Source: Tetracentron sinense
Taxonomy: Eukaryota > Streptophyta > Magnoliopsida > Trochodendrales > Trochodendraceae
Direction: 5' to 3'
Assembly: GCA_015143295.1 (NCBI GenBank)
Contig: CM026562.1
Coordinates: forward strand, 7,778,041-7,842,040
DNA: 64,000 nucleotides
Shown: positions 3,137 to 29,551 of the stretch, in pieces
Layout: the number at the start of each line of letters is the position of its first letter
Position numbering within the stretch: the first letter of the stretch is position 1
The notes under the pieces: generated by a model
Seen by the model: the letters and a program-made list of their open reading frames with translations, nothing else
Databases searched by the model: none
Told to the model about the DNA's origin: nothing
Translations under genes and position numbers: made by a program

Positions 3137-3199
3137 TGACCACATTGGTATCTATTAACCATGAGAAATTTAGGATGAAGAACAAAAATGTCCACATGG
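3137..3199 (+). mobile_element. RTE-type LINE copy A, left segment
   Basis: Encodes VSINHEKF and NKNVHMV-like peptides that match the reverse transcriptase of RTE-type plant LINEs and the copy at 56500-56770. It is cut at 3199 by the long LTR; the sequence resumes at 13140 with the duplicated catgg. Confidence 0.6.
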
Positions 3200-3224
3200 T
3201 GTAAACACCCAATTTTTACACCCC

Positions 3225-3474
3225 TCCTTAAATATGGTTAAGTAATTTAACCATGGTTAAATCTCATTCTAACCCTAGGTCAACTCTAGTCAAACCCTAG
3301 ACAAACCTTAGTCAAACCCTAGTTAAAACCTAGGTCTTAACCCTAGTTAAACCCTAGGTCAACCCTAGTCAAACCCTAGTTAAAACCTAGGACCCAACCT
3401 TAGTTAAACCCTAGGTTAATCCTAGTCAAACCCTAGTCAAACCATAGGCAAACCCCAGTCAAACCCTAGGTCAA
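3225..3474. repeat. Degenerate tandem repeat based on aaaccctag
   Basis: About 20 imperfect units of 11-13 bp of the form (gt)caaaccctag lie in the 5' part of the long LTR. The similarity to the plant telomere repeat is superficial, because the unit length and register vary. Confidence 0.75.
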
Positions 3475-3485
3475 AGGTCAACTCT

Positions 3486-3489
<4 letters not shown>
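3475..3489. repeat. Target-site duplication of the L1 LINE, left copy
   Basis: aggtcaactctagtt, 15 bp, identical to 10063-10077. It lies next to the poly(T) tract, which is the element's poly(A) tail read from the other strand. Confidence 0.93.
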
Positions 3490-3520
<31 letters not shown>

Positions 3521-3521
<1 letters not shown>

Positions 3522-3782
3522 GAAAAGCCACTCAAAAGGAGTGGGGGGTTTGGCAGACCCCTACCTGTTTATTAATAAGAAAAATGGGGGGGGGGGGGGG
3601 GGGGACATAAAACCTTACCCCTACAAATACACAACCAGGGGGGGGACATAAAACCTAACCCCTGGTAAGACATTACAAGGGGGGGACATAAAACCAAAAC
3701 CCCTTAAGGAACACAAAAAGCCAGGGGAATTAAAAACCCCCAACCTAATACAATGACACAAAGAAAAAAATAAGAAAAAACA
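3521..3782 (-). other. LINE 3' UTR with homopolymer and short direct repeats
   Basis: A 19-nt G run (3586-3604; C run in the transcript) is followed by acataaaacc. The unit ggggggacataaaacc then recurs near 3639 and 3680. Three copies in about 100 bp suggest slippage or serial duplication in the UTR. A tail begins at 3520. Confidence 0.8.
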
Positions 3783-6700
3783 TTATGATCTTCTGATATT
3801 CCCTATACCCAATTTATCCAGGAAAAGAAGAGATTGGAGCCTAGGCGGGCACTCCTGTCTAGAAAGAAATGTACCATTATGCTGGGTATCACATCCATAA
3901 TTGGCTAAAAAATCAGCCACCTGATTAGCTTCCCTGTATATGTGGCATATGTTAGAAACAAAACTGGAAACTTTATTGATCTGTTTATTCCAATACCAAG
4001 CATTCCATGGGTGAGAAGAATTCCCATTCCAAGCTTCAACCAGAGATTTAGAGTCAGATTCAATATCAATCTGTGAATAACCTCTAGATAGACAAAGCAA
4101 GATACCATCAAGTAAAGCTCTAGATTCAGCCACATAACAGGAACAGTGATCATAATAAGCAAAGAAGCAAGCTATAATATCTCCATTATGGTTTCGAATG
4201 ATACCCCCTCCTCCTGCTAAGCCTGGATTACCTCTTGAAGCCCCATCCACATTAAGCTTAATTCTTCCAATAGAAGGCCGAATCCACTTGACAATAGAGA
4301 TTAACTCTCGTTGCTTTTGAGGAGAGGTACCAATGTTTAATATAGAGAAGTCCAATCTCTTCTTTCTAGGAATGCTTCCGATGGTCTTCATTCCAATCTT
4401 AATTCGGGCTATAATACTATCAGAAGATTTTTTGGTTCCTTTGAATCTTCGCGAACACCTTTCTTTCCAAATTTCTCATATTATGAGAAGAGGAAGCAGT
4501 ATGAAGAGCTCATTCTGGGTGCTGTCATAAACTCTAAACCATCTCGTCAGAAAACATTGGATGGTATCACTAGACTGAATGATAATGGAACAATAACCTG
4601 CAAAATATCTCCATATACAAGCTGCAATATGACTATTAAAAAGGAGATGAGATAAGTTTTCAATGTGGCCATTAGTGCAACAAGAGCAACAACTAACAAA
4701 AGGAATACCAGCAGATTGGATCTTATTATCAGTTGCTACTGCACCATACATTACCTTCCATCCAAAAATTTGGATTTTCTTTGGGACAATGGAATTCCAA
4801 ATATACTTACTCCATTCCTTTCTAGGATAAGGATTTCTAAAGTTCTCCCAAGCAGACTTAACCGAAAATTTACCAGTAGAACTAGGATTCCATATGAAAA
4901 CATCCTCAGACTCAGAAAGGAAAAATCCAGCATTTTTTATAGCTATCTGAAGATTATCAGGCAAAAAGACATTAACCATAGAGAAATCCCAATTAGCATT
5001 ATTATCGAGCATATTAGAAATAGCTGGAAAAACATTAGGAGTAGAAATAGCATATTCAATGAGAGGAACCTCTCCAAACCATCTATCTAGCCAAAAATTA
5101 ATTTTAGAGCCATCACCAATAAGAGAAGTCGAGTTATAAATCACATCCTTACAAAGAAGGCTAATTTTTATCCATGTTTTAGAAGAACCCGCCCAATAAG
5201 AAGCATTCCAAATATGAGTAAATTGATATTTAGCTCTAAAAAATTTAGACCAAAGATTAGAGGATTGATATAGGGTCCAAGCTTGTTTAAATCTAAGAGC
5301 TAAAGCTAAGTCATTCATTTTCCGAATTCCTAGTCCACCTTCCAAATGGGGAAGGGAACAGATATTCCAATTAATCCAGTGACGCTTTTTAGCTTCATTA
5401 GTATTATTCCAAAAAAATCTAGCCAAAATGCAATCAATTTGGTTGGTTATGGCTTTTGGAACATGAATACCAGTTAGTAAATAAGTGGGAATGGAGGATA
5501 AAACGTGCTTAATCAAAATTAATCTCCCACCCGAAGATAAAAATTTGGCTTTCCAACCTTCCACCTTAGAAGTAATAGATTCAATAAGAGAGTTAAAGTA
5601 AATTTTTTTAATACGACCTTTATAAATGGGAACCCCTAAATAACGGAATGGAAAATTTTTACTAGAAATCCCCACCCAATTAGAAATAGAATCAGATCTT
5701 CTCCTAGACATTTTATCAGAACAATAAAAAGCACTTTTTTCTCTATTAATCATTTGTCCTGACGACTTTTCATAAGATGAAATAAAATCAAAAAGTTTCT
5801 TGATATTATTCTTCTTACCATTGCAAAATAAAAGAATATCATCTGCAAAGAGAAGGTGGGTAACTGGATTGCCAAATCTCCCTAATTTATAAAAGGAAGA
5901 AAGACTCACAGAAATATTTTTGATGCCCCGACTAAGAACTTCTTCAGCAAGAATAAAAAGAGCCGGAGAAATAGGATCTCCTTGCCGAAGACCATGCGAG
6001 CTCTGAAAGAAACCTTGAAGACATCCATTAATAAGAATAGAAAAGGATTGAGTAAGGAGACAGCCACGAATTAATCTCATAACCCGTTCATTAAAACCCA
6101 TTTTTCCCAAGACTGCAAAGATAAAATTCCATTCCATTCGATCATATGCCTTAGACATATCAAGTTTAAAGATAGCGTTACCTCCAATAGATTTCCTATC
6201 AATATCCTGCACCATTTCCTGAGCAATGTTAACATTTTCTAAGATATTTCTACCTTTAACAAAGGCGCTCTGCTCATCAGAAATAAAGTTAGGAAGTAAT
6301 AAACCAATTCTATCAGACAAGATACGTGAAATGATTTTATAAAGGAAATTACATAAGCTAATAGGTCTAAATTCAGAAAAAGAAGTAGGAGAAGTACTTT
6401 TTGGAATTAGAACAATAGCAGTCGCATTTATAGCTCTAGGCATTTCAGCAGTCAAGAAAAAATATGTAATAGCATGGAAAAGATCATCTTTAATAATGTT
6501 CCAACAAGACTGAAAAAAATGCCCAGAGTAACCATCTGGACCAAGAGCACTATCAGCCGACATACTAAAAACAACCTTTTTAATTTCTTCGATAGAGGGA
6601 GAAAAGGAAATAGTATTATTATTTTCCTCAGTAATAAGACTAGGAATGAAGCTCAATAAATTATTATCAGTCAGAGGATTTTCAGAATTAAGCAAATTTT

Positions 6701-7900
6701 GATAAAAGGATACTGCTTCCTTACCAATATCCTCCTGATTATCCAACCAATTACCTTGAACATCTCGGATTCTATGAATACCATTCCGACATCTTCTAGA
6801 ATTAGTGAACATATGGAAAAATTTTGTGTTATTATCCCCTTCTTTCAGCCATTGGATTCTTGATTTTTGTCTCCAATAAATTTCTTCTTGGAGGAGAACA
6901 GACTGCAAATCCATTTTAAGCTTAGATAATCTATCATTTTTTTCCTCATCCCAGGAATATTGAATCTCTTCTTCCAGCTGACCTATTTGATTTTCTATGT
7001 CTTTCAGTTTTATGAAAATATTACCAAAAACTTCTCTATTCCAGATTTTTAAAGTTAATTTTAATCTTTTAAGTTTTAGGAAGAAAGACATAAGGGGATT
7101 GGCTGAAATAGGGGAATTCCAAGAATCAGTCACAACCCTATAAAAGTCTGAATGAGAAATCCACATTTGCTGAAATTTGAAAGATGAGGGACGATTAATG
7201 GAAGCTTCACTAAATACGAATAAAAGAGGAGAATGATCTGATGCAATTCTAGATAAGTGAGTAACCGATGAGATATGAAAGATGTGACTCCATTCAGGGT
7301 TAATCAAGATACGATCAAGACGGGCGTAAATACGATGAACACCCTGTTGATTGTTGCACCAGGTAAATTTACTACCAGAAAAACCAGGATCCATGAGACC
7401 CAAATCATTGATCATATTTTTAAACTCTCCCATATAATCATAGTTTACTTCCCTACCTCCCATTTTTTCATTAAAATCTGCGATAGCGTTAAAATCACCA
7501 CCAATGAAAAATGGCCCAGAAAAATTATTAAATGCAACAATAAGATCAGTCCAAAGAGATAATCTCTCCCGTCTAGTACATTTGGCATAGATGAAGGCAC
7601 ATCTAATCTGACCCATAGAGTTATCACTAACATCTACAATAATCATTTGATCTGTAGCAGATATATATGATACTTTAATATTATTTTTCCAAAACAACCA
7701 TATCTTGTCATGATTAAGGTTATCATTTAAGTGATTATCCATACCAACGAAAGAACATATTTCATGGACAGATTCAAATTTTTTTTTGGTTCAATAATAA
7801 CCGCTAAAGAAACTAGGTTAGAGGAAATTAAATTTTTTAGTCTAGCTTTAGAAGCCAAATTACCAACACCTCTTATGTTCCAAATTAAATAATTATTCAT
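3783..7900 (-). pseudogene. L1-type LINE ORF2: endonuclease-reverse transcriptase-RNase H
   Basis: Would encode the enzyme that nicks genomic DNA and copies the LINE RNA at the nick. The ATG at 7900 overlaps the end of ORF1 by 8 nt in another frame. In order: the start of an AP-type endonuclease (WNIRGVGN), a one-base frameshift in the nine-base run at 7779-7787, then the rest of the endonuclease (GGDFNAI, RLDRILI, SDHSPLL), a reverse transcriptase (PISLCNFLYKIISRIL, FVKGRNI, LDMSKAYDR, HGLRQGDPISP and the catalytic FADDILLF), and a zf-RVT-like Cys/His region (CCSCCTNGHIENLSHLLF). A TGA at 4476-4478 interrupts the frame. The same frame continues through 4391-3783 with an RNase H (NVDGASRGNPG, then conserved Glu and Asp, and EANQVADFLA). 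In relatives Trp is common where the stop stands; a TGG to TGA change is my inference. Confidence 0.92.
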
Positions 7901-9962
7901 TAATAATATTTGTGGAATTTGTATCTTTGAAAAGAACCGCAGTTCTAGATCGGGTAACTCTGTCCGTAGTAGCAATAATTTTATTTAAATTATTTTTCCG
8001 TTTTTGAATTTCCAAAGGCTGAGATTTAAATAATTCTGAATTAAGGAGTTTTTTGGAGAACTTTACTCCATCTTTTTTAAACTCTTCTATATTATTTAAG
8101 GAACAAAGTTTAAAATTGGAATGGAATTCCATAGTTTGAGATTGTTCCTTAAACTTTTTTTCCAGATTTTGATTATGAAAGGGAAAATCTTGATTTTCTA
8201 TAGCCTCCACTAGTTTATTCCACATACAATAACGATTAAAGAATTGAGATTTATTTTGAGAGAATATGTTTTCTGTCATCCTAAGACCATTTATCTCAGC
8301 TTGAGATAGAATAGCAATTCTGTCCAAATCTCTATTAGTTCCATTAATAAACTTATCAGAATTATCAGAGTTATAGGACGTATCTATAGGCAGAAAACGA
8401 TTGCTTCCATTTTTCAAATCCCATCTTTGATTTTGTCTAACTGAATTTTGGAAAGATTTGCTATTCACTATCAATTCTTCTGCTTGAAATTCCTCATAAT
8501 TTTCAATGTTGTTATCAACAGAAAAAATAGCAGAGATCATACCTTCCAACTCTTGCTGCGAATTTTTACCATTAAGCAATTCCACCCTGTTGGCCTTAGT
8601 TGTATCTGATTGCGATTGCATTAAGGCTTCTATTTTATCATCTTTAGTATTCTCCACTATAGCTACTGTTTTTTTGGCGAAAGATGATCCACCATTGCTA
8701 TGCAAACAATCTAAAACATAAGGAGTTAGATGTTCAGAATTAGTAAGAGATAGAGAAGACTTACCAATCACGACATCTACTGGAGATGTTTCCTCGTCTC
8801 TGCAGGAACTTTTAGGAATTTGTTCGTGATCCAAATCTGGAATGAAAATATTCATTGGATCTGCAATATTGATGTTTTTAGATCCTTCTTCTCCAGCAAC
8901 TGAAGAATGAAGCAACTCTCTATCTTGTTCTATATTTTGATCAGAGATTGATGAAGTATGAGGATCTAGGTTAATAATAGCAATCTCCCTTGATATTGCA
9001 GCAATTTTTGGAGAAGGAAACCCACGCTCAAGATCTGAGTGCTGAACTGTATTAGGATTTTCAAAGTTAACCGGATTGGAGGGGTCTTCATTGTGAATTT
9101 GATCCAAATGAAACTTCTTTAGAACCCATTGTTTAGTTTGGTTTTTGAGTGGGACAGCTTCATCCTTTCGTTGATCTTCATTACTGTTCTTGTCTTTGCC
9201 AACCGAACATGAGATAATGTTGTGACCCAGTTTTTTGCATCTAACACAGAACTGAGATTTCTTTTCGTACTCCACTGTTTGCCATCGTCCATGATCTCCT
9301 AAACCCAGCCAAAATCGTTTTGGGTTGGGTTTTAGAATATCCATCTCAATACAAATTCTAGCAACACTCGGTCTGGATAGGGTCTTTGTTGCTCCATCAA
9401 TCTTTAATACCTTTCCGAATATGCTTCCAATAGAGATGAGTGCTGATTCATTGAAGAGATGAAGGGGGAGGTTTGGAAAACTCACCCAAATAGGAACTAT
9501 GGATGGTTCCGCCCCTGATAAAAAAGATGGAGTCCATTTGAAAAATCTGAAAAGGTATCCATTGATATATAGAACTTCCTTAAGCCATATCATTAAATAA
9601 TCTTCCTCCGATGCAAATCTGAAAAGAAGATGCCTTGTATCCAGAATACCAACAGAGAAATCCAGACGTATTCCTGCTGATTTTTTCATATGGACCTTGA
9701 TAACATCCAGCGATGGTCTTCCATATGAGCACTTTGCAACTAAGGATAGTCGATGAGGGGCTGCAAGCTTTGATGATTCTTCTTCAGAGAAAAGTATGGC
9801 TGGTTCTCCACGGTATACTCCTGGTTTTTTGAGAGGGATAACATCATTTTGAGAGGATGAAGAAGACGTTTTACCAAGCACAGCCGCATAAAAAAGGGGA
9901 GGATCCGGCGGTTTGAGGGAGGAGGCTCCCCCCTCACTGCCGGCGGCCCTGGGGTTTAGCAT
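7893..9962 (-). CDS. L1-type LINE ORF1: nucleic-acid-binding protein (DUF4283 and zinc knuckle)
   Basis: An open frame of 689 codons. The N-terminal third resembles the DUF4283 domain of plant LINE ORF1 proteins (FRFFKWTPSF and WVSFPNLPLHLF around residues 135-175). It is followed by a single CCHC knuckle CVRCKKLGHNIISC near residue 240 (CX2CX4HX4C). The remaining 430 residues are polar, low-complexity and not recognisable. Family knowledge says ORF1 binds the LINE transcript to form the ribonucleoprotein used in target-primed reverse transcription. The first ATG follows a 100-base leader. The stop overlaps the ORF2 start, suggesting coupled translation of the two frames. No frame-breaking change is seen, in contrast with ORF2. 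Confidence 0.9.
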   Translation of the reverse strand: MLNPRAAGSEGGASSLKPPDPPLFYAAVLGKTSSSSSQNDVIPLKKPGVYRGEPAILFSEEESSKLAAPHRLSLVAKCSYGRPSLDVIKVHMKKSAGIRLDFSVGILDTRHLLFRFASEEDYLMIWLKEVLYINGYLFRFFKWTPSFLSGAEPSIVPIWVSFPNLPLHLFNESALISIGSIFGKVLKIDGATKTLSRPSVARICIEMDILKPNPKRFWLGLGDHGRWQTVEYEKKSQFCVRCKKLGHNIISCSVGKDKNSNEDQRKDEAVPLKNQTKQWVLKKFHLDQIHNEDPSNPVNFENPNTVQHSDLERGFPSPKIAAISREIAIINLDPHTSSISDQNIEQDRELLHSSVAGEEGSKNINIADPMNIFIPDLDHEQIPKSSCRDEETSPVDVVIGKSSLSLTNSEHLTPYVLDCLHSNGGSSFAKKTVAIVENTKDDKIEALMQSQSDTTKANRVELLNGKNSQQELEGMISAIFSVDNNIENYEEFQAEELIVNSKSFQNSVRQNQRWDLKNGSNRFLPIDTSYNSDNSDKFINGTNRDLDRIAILSQAEINGLRMTENIFSQNKSQFFNRYCMWNKLVEAIENQDFPFHNQNLEKKFKEQSQTMEFHSNFKLCSLNNIEEFKKDGVKFSKKLLNSELFKSQPLEIQKRKNNLNKIIATTDRVTRSRTAVLFKDTNSTNIINE

Positions 9963-10062
9963 AGAACCCTAACAGAATTTCACAAAGTTGTGCTAACATG
10001 CACCCAAAAAATTCTTCCGCTAACTTGCACCTCCAGAGCCAAATTTTTTTGTTGCTTTAATT

Positions 10063-10077
10063 AGGTCAACTCTAGTT
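10063..10077. repeat. Target-site duplication of the L1 LINE, right copy
   Basis: aggtcaactctagtt, identical to 3475-3489. It marks the 5' end of the minus-strand LINE at 10062. Confidence 0.93.
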
Positions 10078-10200
10078 AGCCTTAGCCTAGCCCTAGCTAA
10101 CCCTAAACCCATAGGCAAATAGCCCTGGGCCCATACAAGGCCCATAGACCCTAGCCAAGCCCTAGGAAGGGGGGCCAGCCCTAAAAGTCCAAAAATTCCA

Positions 10201-11484
10201 GAATGTCGGTACTCCATCTACCGACATTCCTTTTATGGTTAAAAACTGTACCACGTGGGGTGTATTTAAGGCAAGCTAGGCCCATTTTTAGAAAAGATCA
10301 GGAATTGCAGCAAAACATCTACCGCCATTCTCAATCTCAGGGGAATGGCGGTACTGGTTCTACCTTCATTCCCTATTTTTACGTGTAAACCAGTCTGCAC
10401 GCCCCCTGCGCACTCCAGTTGCTCCAAGCACGCCTCTGGTCTCCTCCACTCCCTCCCTCCACCTACCCTAGTACGAATGCCCAATGAGTCCCAGGCCTCC
10501 CCTGCTATAAGTACTCACCCATCTTCAAATTCTGGAGAGGATCCAAAAATACCCAAAAGAAATCCTTGTGAAAAACCCCCCTGTATAATCCGAAGCATAT
10601 CTCGCCTTGTATGGGAGTCCTGCGAACCTAGGGGATCAACCTTGGCTCTCATTTTCTTGGAGGTTACTCAGCCACAGCCATTACCATCACCAGTAAAGCA
10701 TGGAAAAATCAACAGGGTAGGGTGCTCCCCTACACCTTTTCTTTTTTTCTTCTGTAAAGCTCATGTGAGCTCCTGGTCCAATTCCAGGAGACTTTTGTTT
10801 CTTCCAAATCCAAGAGTAGAGGTCACCATGCCTTCCCATAGGCATGGGGGCCCTCTCCAGGGAAAAAGGTTGTTATTCGTCTGTGATCCGGCCTCACCAT
10901 GGCATCAAGCCATGCCCCAGGATCCCCCAAACTTCTAAAGTGTCCTTAGACCAATAAAGAAAACTCTAGAGTAGCCCTGGTTCGAAGCCCATAAGAAAAC
11001 ATTAAAATTCTGAAAAAATTCAAAAATGGCGGTAAACACAGTACCACTATTTCTGGGTTTTCCCATTGCAGTGGCTCTGAGTTGAATTTTTGGGGTCCTG
11101 GTCCATTCTAGGGCCTGGACTTGGTCCCTGAAACTCCCCCTGTCCTCCCCTGGTCCTTCCAGGCTTACCAGATCACTCTAACTATGGTTAAAATCCACTG
11201 AACCAGAGAGGACACAATGTCGGTGAACTATTCACCGAAATTCTGAGTTTTCTTCTTATTGGCACAAATGGCCACTGTAGGCCCAATCCAGACCAGGCCC
11301 ATGACTTTTGACAAAGTCTCCTGAATACCCTCAAAGGTCCAAGACCCTCTTGGGTTCACCCCTGACCTTCACCTTGGCTGCAAAGCCACTATTTCAAAAA
11401 TAGTGACATTGGTGATACTCACAGTACCGCCAATTCCATTCTGTGAAGAAATAGAATTTACGGTACTGTATCTACTGTAAATTC
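10201..11484. repeat. Run of seven 29-31-nt inverted-repeat units with 7-nt spacer inside the long LTR
   Basis: Units at 10201-10229, 10302-10330, 10343-10371, 11024-11052, 11215-11243, 11407-11435 and 11454-11484. Each has an arm like GAATGTCGGTA, a 7-nt spacer, and the inverse arm TACCGACATTC. Unit 1 is a perfect 11-bp inverted repeat. Unit 7 pairs GAATTTACGGTA with TACTGTAAATTC. Units 2-6 have some unmatched positions. Arm 2 of unit 2 and arm 1 of unit 3 also pair perfectly (TACCGCCATTC with GAATGGCGGTA). The spacer is 7 nt in every unit, often of the form CTNNATC or CTNNTTC. Confidence 0.8.
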
Positions 11485-12042
11485 CAGTGCTTTTATATAA
11501 TAGTGACCTTGCATAGGGCCCAGACCAGTAGGAGGTCAGTCTATGCCTTGCTGCACTGCCTGGGTCCACCTCAGACCTGCCTAGACCCTTAACCGGGGTT
11601 AGACTTAATCCCGGTTAACTTTTAACCATGGTTTAGACCATTTAGTTTTAGGAAAATCCGAAAAAAAATCCTTTAAAAATCTAAAAAATTGCGTCATCTC
11701 TCATGTTCCTGCTCGTCTTTCATACTCTATCTCTTTCGATTCGCCCATGATCTTCATATGGGTAAGTAGAACTAATAATCCCGTATTAAATTGTTAAACA
11801 TCTGCAATCTATTTTCAAAAATATCTGCAAGGAACCAGATCTTTATACTTAGAATTGGGGCATAATTTTTTTATTTTTTATTTTTTGGATTTTTTGGGGT
11901 ATGGATACTTGGAATTGGAGCAGATTTGTTATAAAATTTTTGGGAGTTTTAATTTTCCAGTTCTACAACAAACGTACCAAGTCACATCATCAATATTTTT
12001 TAGTTGTTTGAACTTTTTACCATGATTGCTCTTAATGTTATC

Positions 12043-12084
12043 TACAAACACTTGGGGGGGTAAAGTCCACACCAAGTGTTTGTA
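12043..12084. repeat. Perfect 13-bp inverted repeat (hairpin)
   Basis: tacaaacacttgg (12043-12055) and ccaagtgtttgta (12072-12084) are separated by 16 nt. It lies inside the long LTR. Its sequence is unrelated to the 29-nt units at 10201-11484. Confidence 0.85.
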
Positions 12085-12479
12085 ATTTTGCCAAAGTGAA
12101 AACCCTTATTAGTATTGTCTCTGAGACAAATACCCACAACTGCAACACAATACTCTTATCTTGTTCTATTCTATTATGTAGACAGCAACCTTACTCAACA
12201 CTGTATGTATATGCACACACACATATATCAAGGATCATATGCATCCATAATTCTCTGGGTTGTTCAGAAACATGCACTCATGTTTGAATCTAAAATTCTA
12301 AATATAACTCATTCATTTAATGCAATTATATATATGCATATGTTGTGCACTTCACTAACGTTCACCAGCAGAAATATTTTCTAAACAAACCAAAAAAATA
12401 TGATTTGGACCTTTTAACCATGATTAGCAATCCTAACCATGGTTAAATCACCATTTAACTTTGGTTAAGCAACCCTAGG

Positions 12480-12706
12480 CCTCCAGGCTTACACCCTTGT
12501 CCTCTAGGTCCTTGCCTTAGCCTCCGATCTTAAACCCTAGCCTTCGAGCTCAACCCATGGCCTCCGGGCCCAATCTTTTGGCCTCCAAGTCCAATCTCTT
12601 GGCCTTCGGGCCCATGCCTTAGCCTCCAGGCCCAATCCTTAGCCTTCGGACCCAACCTTAAGCCTCCGGGCCCAATCCTTAGCCTCCGGGCCCAATCATT
12701 CTAAAC
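12480..12706. repeat. Tandem repeat of about 20-21 bp, roughly ten degenerate units
   Basis: The unit resembles ccttagcctccgggcccaat. The last units (about 12645-12700) are nearly identical and the earlier ones have diverged. GC-rich minisatellite near the 3' end of the long LTR. Confidence 0.85.
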
Positions 12707-13139
12707 CATGCACTTGACCAACTCAGCCAATCAAACCTTAGTCCCCGAACTAAACCCTAGCCACCCCGGTGCACACACACAGTCCCCTAGTCTCGACACG
12801 GGCTCAGGTACTAGAACTACGCTCGGTTTGATCTCACCCCATGTGAGTACATAGGAAACTCAATCTAGGTTCGACCTTAGTTAAGATTTTCTCCTTTCTA
12901 AGATTAGTATACTCTAAAACTTAGGCATTTGATTAAAACTTTGACATTAATTTGGCTTATACCTAGGGAGTAGGTCCATTGTAAAATGGGGGTCCCAGGG
13001 TGCCTAACACTTTCCCTGAGACTTAATCGAACCTCTTACCTAGACTCTCATTGAGACCGTTAGATCTTATCCAAATTCGGGACTTATCCCTCATAATTAA
13101 TAAGTGGCGACTCGAGTGGGCCCAAAAACCGTGCTCAGA

Positions 13140-13327
13140 CATGGTATCTATCAGTGTAGAAAAAAAGTCGTCTAGCCAAGACTTTTAACACCTAGATTAT
13201 GATATAGTGAAGCACTCACTAAATCTTAGCATCGCCTCACCTTGGGAATCCTTTATCGTATATGCATTACTTGGATGCTTTGACCACACTAGTATCTATT
13301 GACCATGAGAAATTATATGACAGTCCT
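13140..13327 (+). mobile_element. RTE-type LINE copy A, middle segment
   Basis: Continues the segment ending at 3199 and matches 56516-56760. It contains the same roughly 200-bp non-RTE insertion found in copy B (the aaaaaagtc...gatgctttgaccacact stretch), then a peptide like VSIDHEKLYD. It is cut at 13327 by the Tekay-like LTR. Confidence 0.7.
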
Positions 13328-25415: not shown

Positions 25416-25924
25416 TTTATTATAATATAGAGTTAAGTACCCTCTTTTTTTTTGCCTTGAACTAAAAATATCATTGGTTAGGGCATGATTTGAAAATTTT
25501 TCCCGACGAGGGTATATATTCCAATTTTACCCTAATAGTGTTTGGTATAAGTTCCATTCCATCCCCCTCAAATGATGTAAATGCACTGATAAGTCTGATA
25601 TACACCAGGTCAAGTCGCCCTATCATCCACCAAAATGTCTCCGTAATGAAAGAAAAGAGAGTGCCGTAAGCCAATGGGCTACTCATTTTTTTGGTTAAAG
25701 GAACAGAACACCTAATTTCTCATGAAGGAACAGAACACCAGGTCAAGTCGCCCCAGAGCCCTTTCCGGCAGAGACAATCCGAGGCCTATTGGGAAATTGA
25801 TGACTAAGTCAAAAAAGGTAGCGATGGACTTTTCTTCGAAGATTAAATAAGGGAAGAGATTTCAGTTGGTGTATCCCAGGCCCTAATCACATCTCTACTA
25901 CTAGCAGTAGCACATGAACAAAAG
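25416..25924. other. Upstream region of the WAK gene
   Basis: No convincing TATA box within 100 bp of the start codon is recognised. At 25602-25753 a perfect 19-bp direct repeat (acaccaggtcaagtcgccc) flanks a 114-bp insertion that shares wording with 2945-3015. AT-rich stretches such as ttattataatatag near 25424 lie about 500 bp from the ATG. Confidence 0.55.
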
Positions 25925-28900
25925 ATGAAACAAATTACAAGTGCAGCCATGCTGCTTCTGCTTCTGGTTCTTCTGTACTTTATTCATCTCATCCTAGTAC
26001 CCATAACGGCAACGAATCTGACATCACAAACGTTGCCCGGCTGCCGAACCAATTGTGGTAGCGTGAGCATACCGTATCCGTTCGGCATCGGAGAAGGCTG
26101 CTATCTGGATGTTGGGTTCAACATAACTTGCAATGAACATAATCTTAGCAACCCCTTACCATTCCTTGGAACTGGTAACATTGAGGTTCTAAACATACAT
26201 CATGATGCTCAAGTGCTTATCAGTGGCTGGTATGCCGTGGACTGCTACAATTCAGGCGGTAAGAGACTTGAAAATGTAAAGGCCTGGACGGATTTGAGTG
26301 AATCTCCATTCTGGTTCTCGGCCACCCACAATATATTCACGGCCATCGGATGCGACACTATCGCTTTCTTCAGTGAGTCTGAGGAGCAAGATTTCGTAAG
26401 CGGGTGTGTATCCTTTTGCAACGATAAAGAAAGTGTAATCGAGGGGTCCTGCTCCGGTATCGGTTGTTGCCAGATCACCATTCCCCCGCAACTTAAGAGG
26501 TTTAACGTTACCCTTGAGAGCAATGACAACCACAATAAGTCCTGGAACTACAATCCTTGCAGCTATGGCTTCCTGGCCGAAAAAGAATGGTTCAACTTCA
26601 CATTATCGGATCTCGCCGCTGATGGTTACGTGGATAGAGAAAATATTCCTGTGGTGCTAGACTGGGCGATCGGAAACAAAACATGTGAGGAAGTTCGAAG
26701 AGAAGACTCGGCTTCTCTTGCTTGTGCCCCAAATAGCAACTGCACCACCAATGGCCCTGGATATCGGTGTTACTGCAACAAAGGTTACCAAGGGAACCCA
26801 TATCTTTCCCAAGGATGCCAAGGTAACTCCATATTTTATATTTCCAATTCGTAGCTTAAAAAGTGATCCTTAGGTTCTCCATAGCTCTATTCTCCCCTTT
26901 TGGGGAGGGGGGGGGGGGGCAAGAAGAAAAGAATTTTGTGTAGTACTGCAATACCTTGTCTTCTTGCCCTTCAGAGGAGTGAGGAGGAATGTCAGCCCTA
27001 CTCTCACCCTCACCAACCTCATGTCCAATTTGTAATAATTAAAGCACTCTCTCATGTTATATGGACAGGTGGTTGGTAGAGGGTAAGAGTATGAGTTGAT
27101 TCAAGACTAGGGCTAACACAATAGCACTATTCAAGGAAGGTCAGGGAGTGAGATCTCCAAAAAAAAAAAAAAAAATTAAGGGAATTACTAGTTAGACAGC
27201 AAAGTGCCGAGACCACACTGAGACCGTGCATGTGATAAGTGGATCTCAAAAAAGATAATATCATATTTATGAAAATTTTAAGATCCGCTAATCACATGCG
27301 CGCGGACTCGATATGGTCGCGGCCCTCTGCGGTCTTAGTAGCAAAGTCCAAAAATTAATGCGGGGAGTAGAGTTGGCAAAATCCCCCAGTCCATTTTGTC
27401 CACTGAGCTCGAGATTTGGATCACATGCAGTCAATTGCACATGAACTCTCCCCGAAATCAATCTCACTCACATATCAACCCGCGTCCTCTTTTAACTCCT
27501 ATTATTAGCCGGTTAAAATTCACTAATTGGTGAGATTCAACAATATAATCTTGGTTTTTTGGAAAAAAAATTATTAAAGCATAAATGTTAAAAAAAAGTG
27601 GGAAATGCTTTTGAGACCGCATAAGGGGAAGAGATATCAAATGGGGAGAAGTCAAAATCATGGGGAGAAAATGGAATGACTTCTCCCCATATTTTTGCCA
27701 ACTGTCGCATAATGTATGGAATCCCGAGACCAGTTTTTGGCTTCCCCAGAGACAATGCGAGGCCTTGGCCTATATTGGGAGTGATTGAACTCGGAGTGAG
27801 TTGAATCACAATTGACTGTGATCCAAGCTCACGGTGACAGTATTGCATTTATTTAAATTGTTGAAACCTAAGGTTTAGTAAATGTTGACCACAGTTAATA
27901 GAGACTGGCCAGTGGGTGCGACTGAACTCTCCTCGAGTTCAATCGCGATTGGCTTTGATCCCATCTCAGCCCGGCTTGTGTATTGATGCATATTGCTTAA
28001 CATGGGTATGAAACACCAACAAACGCACATCCCATGAATTGCAATTGTTAATCGAGTATGTTTTAATTTTGTCGGTGAAGACATCAACGAGTGTGAAGAC
28101 AATCCCTGCGAAGGGCTTTGCCACAATACAATTGGAAACTATAGCTGCTCTTGTAAAGATGGCTACCATGGCGATGGCAGAAAGAATGGGAGCGGTTGTA
28201 CCCCAGATACTTTTCCAGTGATCATCGTTGTCTCAGGTACTTACTCTCTTAATCACACCCAAGTAAAACTAGGCATATACGTACCTTTATGAGTTGTTTT
28301 GAAAATCATCAATGTGAAGGCATTTGGTTGAAGAGAATGATCAAACATTTAAAACTGGCTCTCAATGCAGGAATTGGTGTAGGCTTTTTGTTTGTATTTG
28401 CTTCCAGTTCGTGGTTATATTGGGCACTCAAGAGAAGAAGGCTTATCAAACTTAAAGAGAAATTCTTCCAGCAAAATGGAGGTATGGTATTACAGCAGCA
28501 AATTGCTAGGCATAGAGGTGTATCGGAGATGGCAAAGATCTTCACTGTACAAGACATGAAAAAGGCAACCAACAACTACCATGAGAGTCGAGTTCTTGGC
28601 CAGGGAGGCTACGGTACGGTTTACAAAGGAATTCTACCAGATAACAGAGTAGTCGCCATTAAAAAGTCCAAAATTATGAACCAAAGCCAAATTATACAGT
28701 TCATAAATGAAGTGGACATTCTTTCTCAAATCAACCACAGAAATGTGGTGAAGCTCTTGGGTTGTTGTTTAGAGACAGAGGTTCCCTTGTTGGTTTATGA
28801 ATTCATTTCCAACGGAACCCTCTTCGAGCACATTCACGATGAGAGGCACGCAACATCTCTTTCATTGGAAAACCGTTTAAGGATCGCCGCCGAGACTGCT

Positions 28901-29551
28901 GGATCACTATCCTACTTGCACTCGGCACACTCCATTCCGATTCTTCACAGAGATGTCAAGTCTGCCAATATACTCTTGGATGATAACTACACAGCAAAAG
29001 TGTCTGATTTTGGAGCTTCAAGGTTGGTTCCTCTGGAGGAAACTCAAATGACGACACTGGTTCAAGGTACCTTAGGATACTTGGATCCAGAATGCTTTCA
29101 AACAGGTCAACTGACGGATAAAAGCGATGTTTATAGCTTTGGCGTTGTTCTTGCTGAGCTCCTGACTGGGGAGAAGCCACTATCGCCAGATAGAAGCGAG
29201 GAGCATAGGAGTCTAGCTATGTACTTCATTGCTTCCATGAAAGAAAATCGCCTCTTTCAGATTCTCGAGGATCGAGTTGTGAACGAGGGGCAGAGAGAGC
29301 AACTAGTGGCGGTTGCTGAGCTTACAAGGAGATGCCTGAAGGTGAAGGGGGAGGAAAGGCCGACAATGAAGCAAGTGGCTGCAGAACTGGACGGGCTGAG
29401 AAAGTTCCAAGAGCATCCATGGGTACAAGGGAAGCAGCAGGAGGAAACTGAGAGTTTACTAGGTGAACCATCTAATCGTTTGGTTGGCAATGCTAGTGGC
29501 CAAGATAGTATGGAGAGCCAGTTCATGATGTCATTGGAAATTGCACGATAA
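25925..29551 (+). CDS. Wall-associated receptor kinase (WAK), three exons
   Basis: Plasma-membrane Ser/Thr kinase whose ectodomain is expected to contact cell-wall pectin. Exons are 25925-26822, 28081-28236 and 28371-29551, all joined in phase 1 at AG/GT borders, giving 744 residues, the usual WAK size. Signal peptide about 1-29. Galacturonan-binding GUB_WAK domain from Cys40 ([14 protein letters not shown] 49-56). EGF-like region about 252-299. Calcium-binding EGF 300-339, which opens [10 protein letters not shown] and corresponds to exon 2. Transmembrane helix about 353-371, followed by basic KRRR. Kinase: glycine loop GQGGYG 428-433, Lys449 in VAIKK, HRD 544-546 followed by [11 protein letters not shown] 564-566 and GTLGYLDPE. 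The HRD arginine makes it an RD kinase, and no key residue is missing. The first in-frame ATG is chosen because a hydrophobic leader follows directly. I cannot assign a family member number. Confidence 0.95.
27206..27339. mobile_element. Small MITE in WAK intron 1
   Basis: 134 bp flanked by agcaaagt (27198-27205 and 27340-27347), a perfect 8-bp target duplication. The interior is self-complementary (gcatgtgataagtggatct with agatccgctaatcacatgc). An 8-bp duplication fits hAT-type mobilisation. Confidence 0.8.
27641..27690. repeat. Hairpin of a MITE fragment in WAK intron 1
   Basis: atggggagaagtca and tgacttctccccat form a 14-bp perfect inverted repeat with a 22-nt loop. The surroundings (gagatatcaaatggggagaa) are the inverse of the core of the MITE at 40284-40506, so it is probably an older copy of the same family. 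Confidence 0.75.

Follow-up and report, generated by a model that had tools for sequence, protein, structure and literature searches.

Seven spaced palindromic units around the TATA box of an abundant LTR family in Tetracentron sinense: a candidate cis-regulatory operator array

Introduction

Repeated palindromes in LTRs have been described for the Sireviruses (Ty1/copia), in which Bousios et al. (2010) found 13 palindromic repeated motifs (RMs) upstream of the TATA box, a CGG-CCG core being present in all except one (PMC2829016). The authors proposed a regulatory role and suggested stress-related cis-elements, a common binding factor could not be named, and the RM was specific to Sireviruses among the elements compared in that paper (PMC2829016). 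For maize, Bousios et al. (2016) described Sirevirus palindromes as small-RNA hotspots with predicted structure (PMC10760457, PMC5311732), the motif being CACCGGAC-N3-GTCCGGTG (PMC10760457). With regards to short plant elements, the CRT/DRE is given as TACCGACAT and the GCC box of ERF proteins as AGCCGCC (PMC8452809); the CRT/DRE is also named in PMC10096972. Among the literature matches listed, comprising titles and abstract openings with subscription journals mostly outside the scope, no paper dealt with repeated palindromes in Ty3/gypsy LTRs. In Arabidopsis, VANDAL transposons carry many short, unpaired anti-silencing target motifs per element, which are bound by the sequence-specific VANC protein. 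The units described here are likewise numerous short motifs in a transposon, but they are paired.

The units lie in a solo LTR within the window, i.e., the whole stretch of 64,000 nucleotides of T. sinense DNA that was analyzed. They are similar to the Sirevirus RMs in that an LTR carries many palindromes and in the CGG...CCG core, and their CGGTA/TACCG half-sites recur in the Inga RM AGCGGTASTACCGCT (PMC2829016). In contrast, the RM spacers read off the printed consensus (Table 3 of that paper) are 0–4 nt long, 1 nt in Inga, compared to 7 nt here. While RM identity within a Sirevirus element is mostly above 85% (66.5–100%, Table 3), the spacer sequence here differs from unit to unit, and whereas the RMs are found upstream of the TATA box, three units here are upstream and four downstream, in two half-site types (PMC2829016). 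The RM criterion was at least eight copies per element, with LTR copies counted in the 3' LTR (PMC2829016); here, an LTR has seven unit positions, a number that rises to 14 per element only with both LTRs in place. The maize palindromes also form clusters in the LTR cis-region (PMC10760457, PMC5311732), yet they are linked to small RNAs, whereas the units here are known from DNA sequence alone and have no overall G.U signature. The units share the core and the style of the Sirevirus RMs at a different spacing. The first-pass annotation of the window had known of no described function for such a run in Tat/Ogre-like LTRs, which has to be qualified, as repeated CGG-CCG palindromes with a proposed regulatory role are described for Sirevirus LTRs (PMC2829016).

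LTR copies and tallies

Genome-wide counts refer to the 1.16-Gb genome. A set of 68 LTR copies was assembled from 78 loci, minus exclusions, plus the window. The loci were 40 scored matches to one window piece and the best 30 of the matches to another, so the sample leans to the relatives of the window. Excluded were L001, L002, L049, and L050 (the window itself and the copies of its twin), L003–L008 (refetched as L010–L015), and L048, while near-identical copies were retained (e.g., L012/L013/L016, L022/L026, L031/L032, and L066/L078). The tallies of half-sites, types, and symmetry as well as the tree analysis are based on a motif-filtered set, 401 of 454 unit instances, and the filter inflates conservation.

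Results

The host LTR and its family

The solo LTR spans 3200–13139 and is split by a LINE, without which it measures approximately 3.35 kb (Table 1). The LINE is flanked by a 15-nt duplication, AGGTCAACTCTAGTT, at 3475–3489 and 10063–10077. It is of plant type with long open frames, namely ORF1 at 7893–9968 (DUF4283), ORF2 at 4476–7790 (endonuclease/RT/zf-RVT), and a further 230-codon frame at 3783–4475.

Table 1. Positions of the units and of the surrounding LTR features in the window.
Feature	Position	Strand	Basis
Left TSD of the solo LTR, CATGG	3195–3199	.	Sequence; right copy at 13140–13144
LTR 5' piece, begins TGTAAACACCCAATTTTTACACC, with AACCCTAG-type microrepeats	3200–3489	+	Matching start in many copies
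LINE within the LTR	3490–10062	-	Pfam DUF4283, Exo_endo_phos, RVT_1, zf-RVT; T-run 3488–3520
Solo LTR 3' piece, ends ...GTGCTCAGA, followed by TSD CATGG	10078–13139	+	Sequence
Unit 1, A-type (TACCGACATT half-sites), upstream of TATA box	10201–10229	.	Palindrome scan, LTR alignment, half-site tally
Unit 2, C-type, left arm decayed in window copy	10302–10330	.	LTR alignment, half-site tally
Unit 3, C-type	10343–10371	.	Palindrome scan, LTR alignment, half-site tally
TATA box	10506–10512	+	TATA-type match near it in 54 of 67 copies, same column in 52
Unit 4, C-type, downstream of TATA box	11024–11052	.	Palindrome scan, LTR alignment, half-site tally
Unit 5, A-type	11215–11243	.	Palindrome scan, LTR alignment, half-site tally
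Unit 6, C-type	11407–11435	.	Palindrome scan, LTR alignment, half-site tally
Unit 7, C-type position	11454–11484	.	LTR alignment, half-site tally

Directly 3' of the solo LTR (after 13139), a PBS was absent. In three other copies (L014, L018, and L040), the LTR end is adjoined by a PBS-like TGGCGACTCCGYTGRGGA, which we take to match a tRNA and to be tied to Tat elements, and in ten loci (L024, L041, L042, L045, L054, L056, L059, L062, L067, and L070) a polypurine-like AAAGAGGGGCAG or a variant is found just 5' of the LTR start. The solo LTR here and these flanks elsewhere indicate that the LTR family comprises longer copies besides solo LTRs. The family is known here from its LTRs and ORF-poor flanks: no ORF of at least 100 aa was found in the 9.9 kb after the PBS of L018, the frames in the approximately 8.5 kb before the 3' LTR of L059 reached at most 144 aa between stops, and an 80-aa piece of L059 that looked gag-like by eye matched 0 Pfam families. 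Tat/Ogre-like Ty3/gypsy is the label given in the first-pass annotation; a long LTR with a 5-bp TSD agrees with it, although this feature is not lineage-specific. The Retand lineage was considered as well, and the accessible part of its source (PMC11963269) had no bearing on the units.

Several other features were recorded. A block of approximately 700 bp (11690–12393), present in the window copy and its 97% twin L009, is missing or much shorter in most other LTRs and represents either an insertion or a divergent block. A nine-copy tandem array of the 20-nt unit CCTTAGCCTCCGGGCCCAAT occupies 12515–12697, and overlapping matches suggest such arrays in other LTR copies. Near the LTR start (3271–3475), there are AACCCTAG/AACCCTAGGTCA-type microrepeats with a telomere-like look, which are found in many LTR copies. 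The same LTRs contain a second palindrome class, TTAACCATGGTTAA-like and of variable spacing (11589–11636, 12413–12467, and the LTR starts of many loci), and an inverted repeat, CCATGCCT-TCCCAT-AGGCATGG, at 10821–10852, whose spacer is 6–7 nt in several copies. Finally, pieces of a receptor-like kinase gene, with a wall-associated kinase look by eye, were noted at 25847–29551 (frames 25847–26854 and 28253–29551).

Seven units at fixed positions

All seven units that had been reported from this long LTR were found at the starts given for them, which confirms the earlier observation of spaced palindromes. Their centers are at 10215, 10316, 10357, 11038, 11229, 11421, and 11469, and their pattern is AATGNCGGTA-N7-TACCGNCATT (n = 7 in the solo LTR). 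With 10-nt arms and a 7-nt spacer, the window copy had no mismatch in unit 1, one in units 5 and 7, and two in units 3, 4, and 6; unit 2 had more than two arm mismatches and was absent from the palindrome scan list. When the 64 kb were scanned for 8-nt cores in pairs, with spacers of 0–20 and no more than 3 mismatches in 14 positions, six of the seven units were recovered (all but unit 2), together with 11 other pairs, none of which had a spacer of 7. The right arm of unit 6 also pairs with the left arm of unit 7 (11421–11440 with 11450–11469, 20-nt arms, 85%, 9-nt gap), resulting in a four-half-site cluster, which has a CAATTCCATT-N9-AATGGAATTG-like form in several copies.

The palindrome scan of 10101–11600, in which nested matches within one unit are counted repeatedly, yielded 50 matches versus 11.3 ± 4.7 in 200 dinucleotide shuffles, and 9 versus 0.7 (maximum 3) for spacer 7 alone. 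In the 68 LTR fragments, 380 strong inverted-repeat axes of any sequence (spacers 3–12) compare to 42 per shuffle set (three sets). Genome-wide, 5425 exact pairs with any spacer of 0–20 were counted and only 1 for the reversed pattern. Chance palindromes are ruled out by these three controls.

When the 5' parts of the 68 LTRs were aligned, unit centers fell into exactly seven columns, occupied for units 1–7 in 57, 55, 62, 54, 51, 50, and 52 copies (at most four mismatches in 14 fixed positions); an eighth column with unit-like centers held 7 copies. Since the unit positions are common to the LTR copies, a reading as MITE-like insertions was dropped informally. Tandem or segmental duplication of the units with their flanks was rejected on the little flank similarity (0.20–0.42 at offsets 18–45), and nested-element targeting of palindromes was considered, with no bearing on the units in the accessible part of the source (PMC6911290). 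Relative to the TATA box, units 1–3 are located approximately 150–290 bp upstream and units 4–7 approximately 530–960 bp downstream. A second TATA beside unit 7 (11494), with TATA-type matches in 13 of 67 copies, was taken as chance because its column is kept in only 5 of them.

One primary half-site sequence is common to all 14 half-sites. As an inverted pair, its consensus is TACCGMCAWTY (M = C or A, W = A or T), and outward from the axis the right arm reads N N W N T A C C G M C A W T Y. Among the 401 motif-filtered units, the percentages were T92–93 A97–98 C83–89 C78–80 G80–81 N C82–83 A96–97 W T96–97. Position M is occupied by A in units 1 and 5 and by C (often T) in the remaining five, in each case on both arms. 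At offset 12, A is the W base chiefly in units 6 and 7. Half-sites lay inside units in 299 of 339 cases on the left and 305 of 365 on the right.

Constraint on spacer and arms

In the LTR copies, 352 of 401 half-site pairs had a spacer of 7 nt, 5 one of 8 nt, and 2 one of 6 nt, with the other 42 scattered over 0–30; of the 50 sites listed among the 5425 genome-wide, 47 had spacer 7 and the rest 0, 1, and 18. With flanks matching at least 7 of 8 per side, length had changed in 6 of 983 unit spacers (0.6%) versus 5583 of 42,272 other 7-nt windows (13%), a comparison in which ten reference rows are pooled, cases repeat and are non-independent, and misalignment may explain part of the change in the other windows. 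Under perfect flanks, the numbers were 0 of 155 and 512 of 6020, respectively. The proposed selection for spacing is therefore well supported.

Mean pairwise column identity over the 68 copies was 0.73 for arms, 0.58 for flanks, and 0.54 for spacers. The arm drift noted in the first-pass annotation is smaller than suggested there, and much of the arm variation is of the C-to-T type or falls on two positions (offsets 9 and 12). Without the motif filter, A/T columns of the unit arms reached 0.88 and C/G columns 0.75, compared to 0.67–0.74 in non-unit columns. CpG retention, CG/(CG+TG+CA), was 0.56–0.82 at the 14 unit CpGs, 13 of which exceeded the best (0.58) of 16 comparable non-unit CpG column pairs; with 11% of the bases, the units account for 555 of 1785 CpGs. 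In addition, spacer position 2 (offset 2), which is outside the motif filter, was A/T in 98%, a preference that held for every one of the 14 half-site columns and included all four combinations (A-A, T-T, A-T, and T-A). Among the A-type sites listed genome-wide, 46 of 50 had A/T there on both sides.

Unit types, symmetry, and covariation

Exact spacer-7 pairs genome-wide amounted to 1176 A/A, 2421 C/C, and 41 + 48 = 89 mixed A/C, whereas independent arms would give approximately 1633 mixed units by arithmetic from these counts. In the 68 copies, the type follows the unit position, so these genome-wide counts do not equal independent events. Mixed units made up 20 of 388, and no both-arm type switch within one unit occurred among the 388, which makes the genome-wide rarity of mixed units at least partly a matter of descent. 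Within a copy, the arms of one unit resembled each other more than the arms of different units did at offsets 4, 9, 12, and 14–17 only (slightly at 3), with 0.67 versus 0.31 at offset 9, 0.90 versus 0.62 at offset 12, and 0.42–0.57 versus 0.27–0.43 at offsets 14–17; at the other arm offsets, the shared half-site accounts for the symmetry. Within the spacer, position 1 had none, offset 2 gave 0.47 versus 0.50, and position 3 gave 0.39 versus 0.32.

For the covariation check, the tree was built without the unit columns, and 70 arm pairs (offsets 4–13) were compared to 200 control draws from other units. On internal branches, double changes numbered 20 against a control mean of 7.1 (maximum 17.8), while pairs shifted by 1–3 columns (49–63 pairs) gave 2–8. 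Paired-to-paired changes numbered 13 versus 4.1 (maximum 10.2), 9 of the 13 being G-C to A-T. Terminal branches stayed within the control range for both double changes (35 versus 27.6, maximum 43.2) and paired-to-paired changes (25 versus 15.9, maximum 26.5). Furthermore, 151 single changes on internal branches broke a pair, so the arms often decay unmatched. The compensatory arm change suggested earlier is hence real, to a modest extent and chiefly on internal branches, where the excess is moderate; the terminal signal is weak.

Discussion

The number, position, and spacing of the units, their half-site, their constraint compared to neighboring sequence, and the TATA box lead us to a reading that we judge somewhat better than even: the units probably form a symmetric cis-regulatory array of DNA operators for a dimeric or paired factor in an abundant LTR-retrotransposon family. 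Each unit would provide two inverted half-sites held 7 bp apart, with two unit positions being A-type and five C-type on both arms, and with three units upstream of the TATA box and four within approximately 1 kb downstream. In the most likely scenario, the units would be bound by a sequence-specific factor, dimeric or paired, which would drive or de-repress LTR transcription; binding, dimerization, and LTR activation are what the sequence pattern would predict. Several observations run against operators. Mixed A/C units are rare (89), which a dimer tolerant at M would not require, although part of this is descent. At offsets 9, 12, and 14–17, units are more symmetric than the common half-site accounts for, as would also be expected from hairpins or palindrome repair. 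The 151 single pair-breaking changes stand against only 13 paired-to-paired doubles on internal branches, and conservation of the arm columns is lower once the motif filter is dropped (A/T 0.88, C/G 0.75).

With regards to the factor, the AP2/ERF (DREB/ERF) class is a speculative candidate, brought in because the A-type half-site contains the DRE 9-mer. AP2/ERF proteins are not known to need a fixed 7-bp inverted spacing, which speaks against this candidate. The match of the A-type half-site (units 1 and 5) to TACCGACAT is exact, while the C-type TACCGCCATT has an ERF-like CCGCC, as ACCGCC and not the full AGCCGCC (PMC8452809). The two types differ at the one position that separates the DRE (CCGAC) from the GCC box (CCGCC). 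Fixed 7-bp inverted pairing is outside the DRE and GCC definitions quoted from these sources (PMC8452809, PMC10096972). The DRE match may serve as a lead to AP2/ERF; many short plant elements exist.

The first-pass annotation had left the choice between a dimeric DNA-binding protein and an RNA stem-loop. Stem-loops in LTR transcripts could act as Dicer-like substrates feeding siRNAs, a role that has been put forward for the maize Sirevirus palindromes, or as packaging or dimerization hairpins, an explanation that we regard as rather unlikely, though it has several points in its favor. Single-strand folding beats shuffles (z -5.2 for 11200–11500, 0 of 100 as good; z -4.3 for 10190–10390, 0 of 200), as palindromes would give, double changes on internal branches are in excess, and variable positions inside the units are symmetric. 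Pairing often reaches the spacer: among the 50 A-type sites listed, 34 are complementary at offset 3 and 30 at offset 2. In addition, unit 3 leans to G.T over A.C mismatches (55 versus 22). However, unit 5 leans the opposite way (17 versus 43), and the sense strand has no overall preference, with 258 G.T and 267 A.C mismatches in 4010 pairs; the inferred pair breaks (G.U versus A.C) were 50 versus 62 on internal and 147 versus 133 on terminal branches. Complementarity would suffice for a hairpin, yet all arms share one sequence with a CpG core. The fixed spacer length also argues against stem-loops, as does the A/T at offset 2, which is no more complementary within units than between them. Recognition of the duplex is thus favored over an RNA hairpin by the shared half-site, the rigid spacing, the unpaired A/T positions, the promoter placement, and the missing G.T excess, and of the two options the protein fits better. 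The extra symmetry within units nevertheless leaves room for hairpin or palindrome-repair effects.

That symmetry also speaks for a reading without present function, in which perfect inverted copies are kept symmetric by arm-to-arm copying, with template switching in reverse transcription or repair as the proposed route. We consider such homogenization improbable. The rarity of mixed units would agree with it, as would the same 7-nt spacer, e.g., CTGTGTT, occurring with either type among the sites listed, irrespective of LTR position. On the other hand, the depletion of spacer-length changes would be left unexplained, as would the A/T at offset 2 without symmetry, the better CpG retention, and the position-specific conservation, and the 68 copies had no both-arm type switch and only few mixed units. 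Ordinary inheritance, i.e., common descent of one LTR family without special constraint, seems to us very improbable. The copies are related and have inherited unit positions along with unit types, but in the same copies the arms exceed the flanks in identity, changes of spacer length are less frequent by approximately 20-fold compared to other windows, and apart from the motif common to them the seven units have little similarity in their flanks.

Returning to the operator array, a stricter version appears possible but doubtful to us. The order A, C, C, TATA, C, A, C, C would then constitute a spaced-dyad code, read by a dimeric factor that needs same-type half-sites at exactly 7 bp. Because units and copies vary in spacer sequence, in half-site type, and in symmetry, the question of operator or hairpin can be put to a direct test.

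Conclusions

The units add a second case in which LTRs carry a CGG-CCG half-site core as in Sireviruses, with a different, rigid spacing and thousands of natural variants. If a stress factor binds them, its targets could face competition from, or be rewired by, thousands of sites within a single genome. Should the spaced-dyad code hold, the LTR family described here would have acquired a CGGTA/TACCG operator system, either on its own or by inheritance, and its at least 3686 exact spacer-7 sites could represent a decoy sink or a genome-wide enhancer set.
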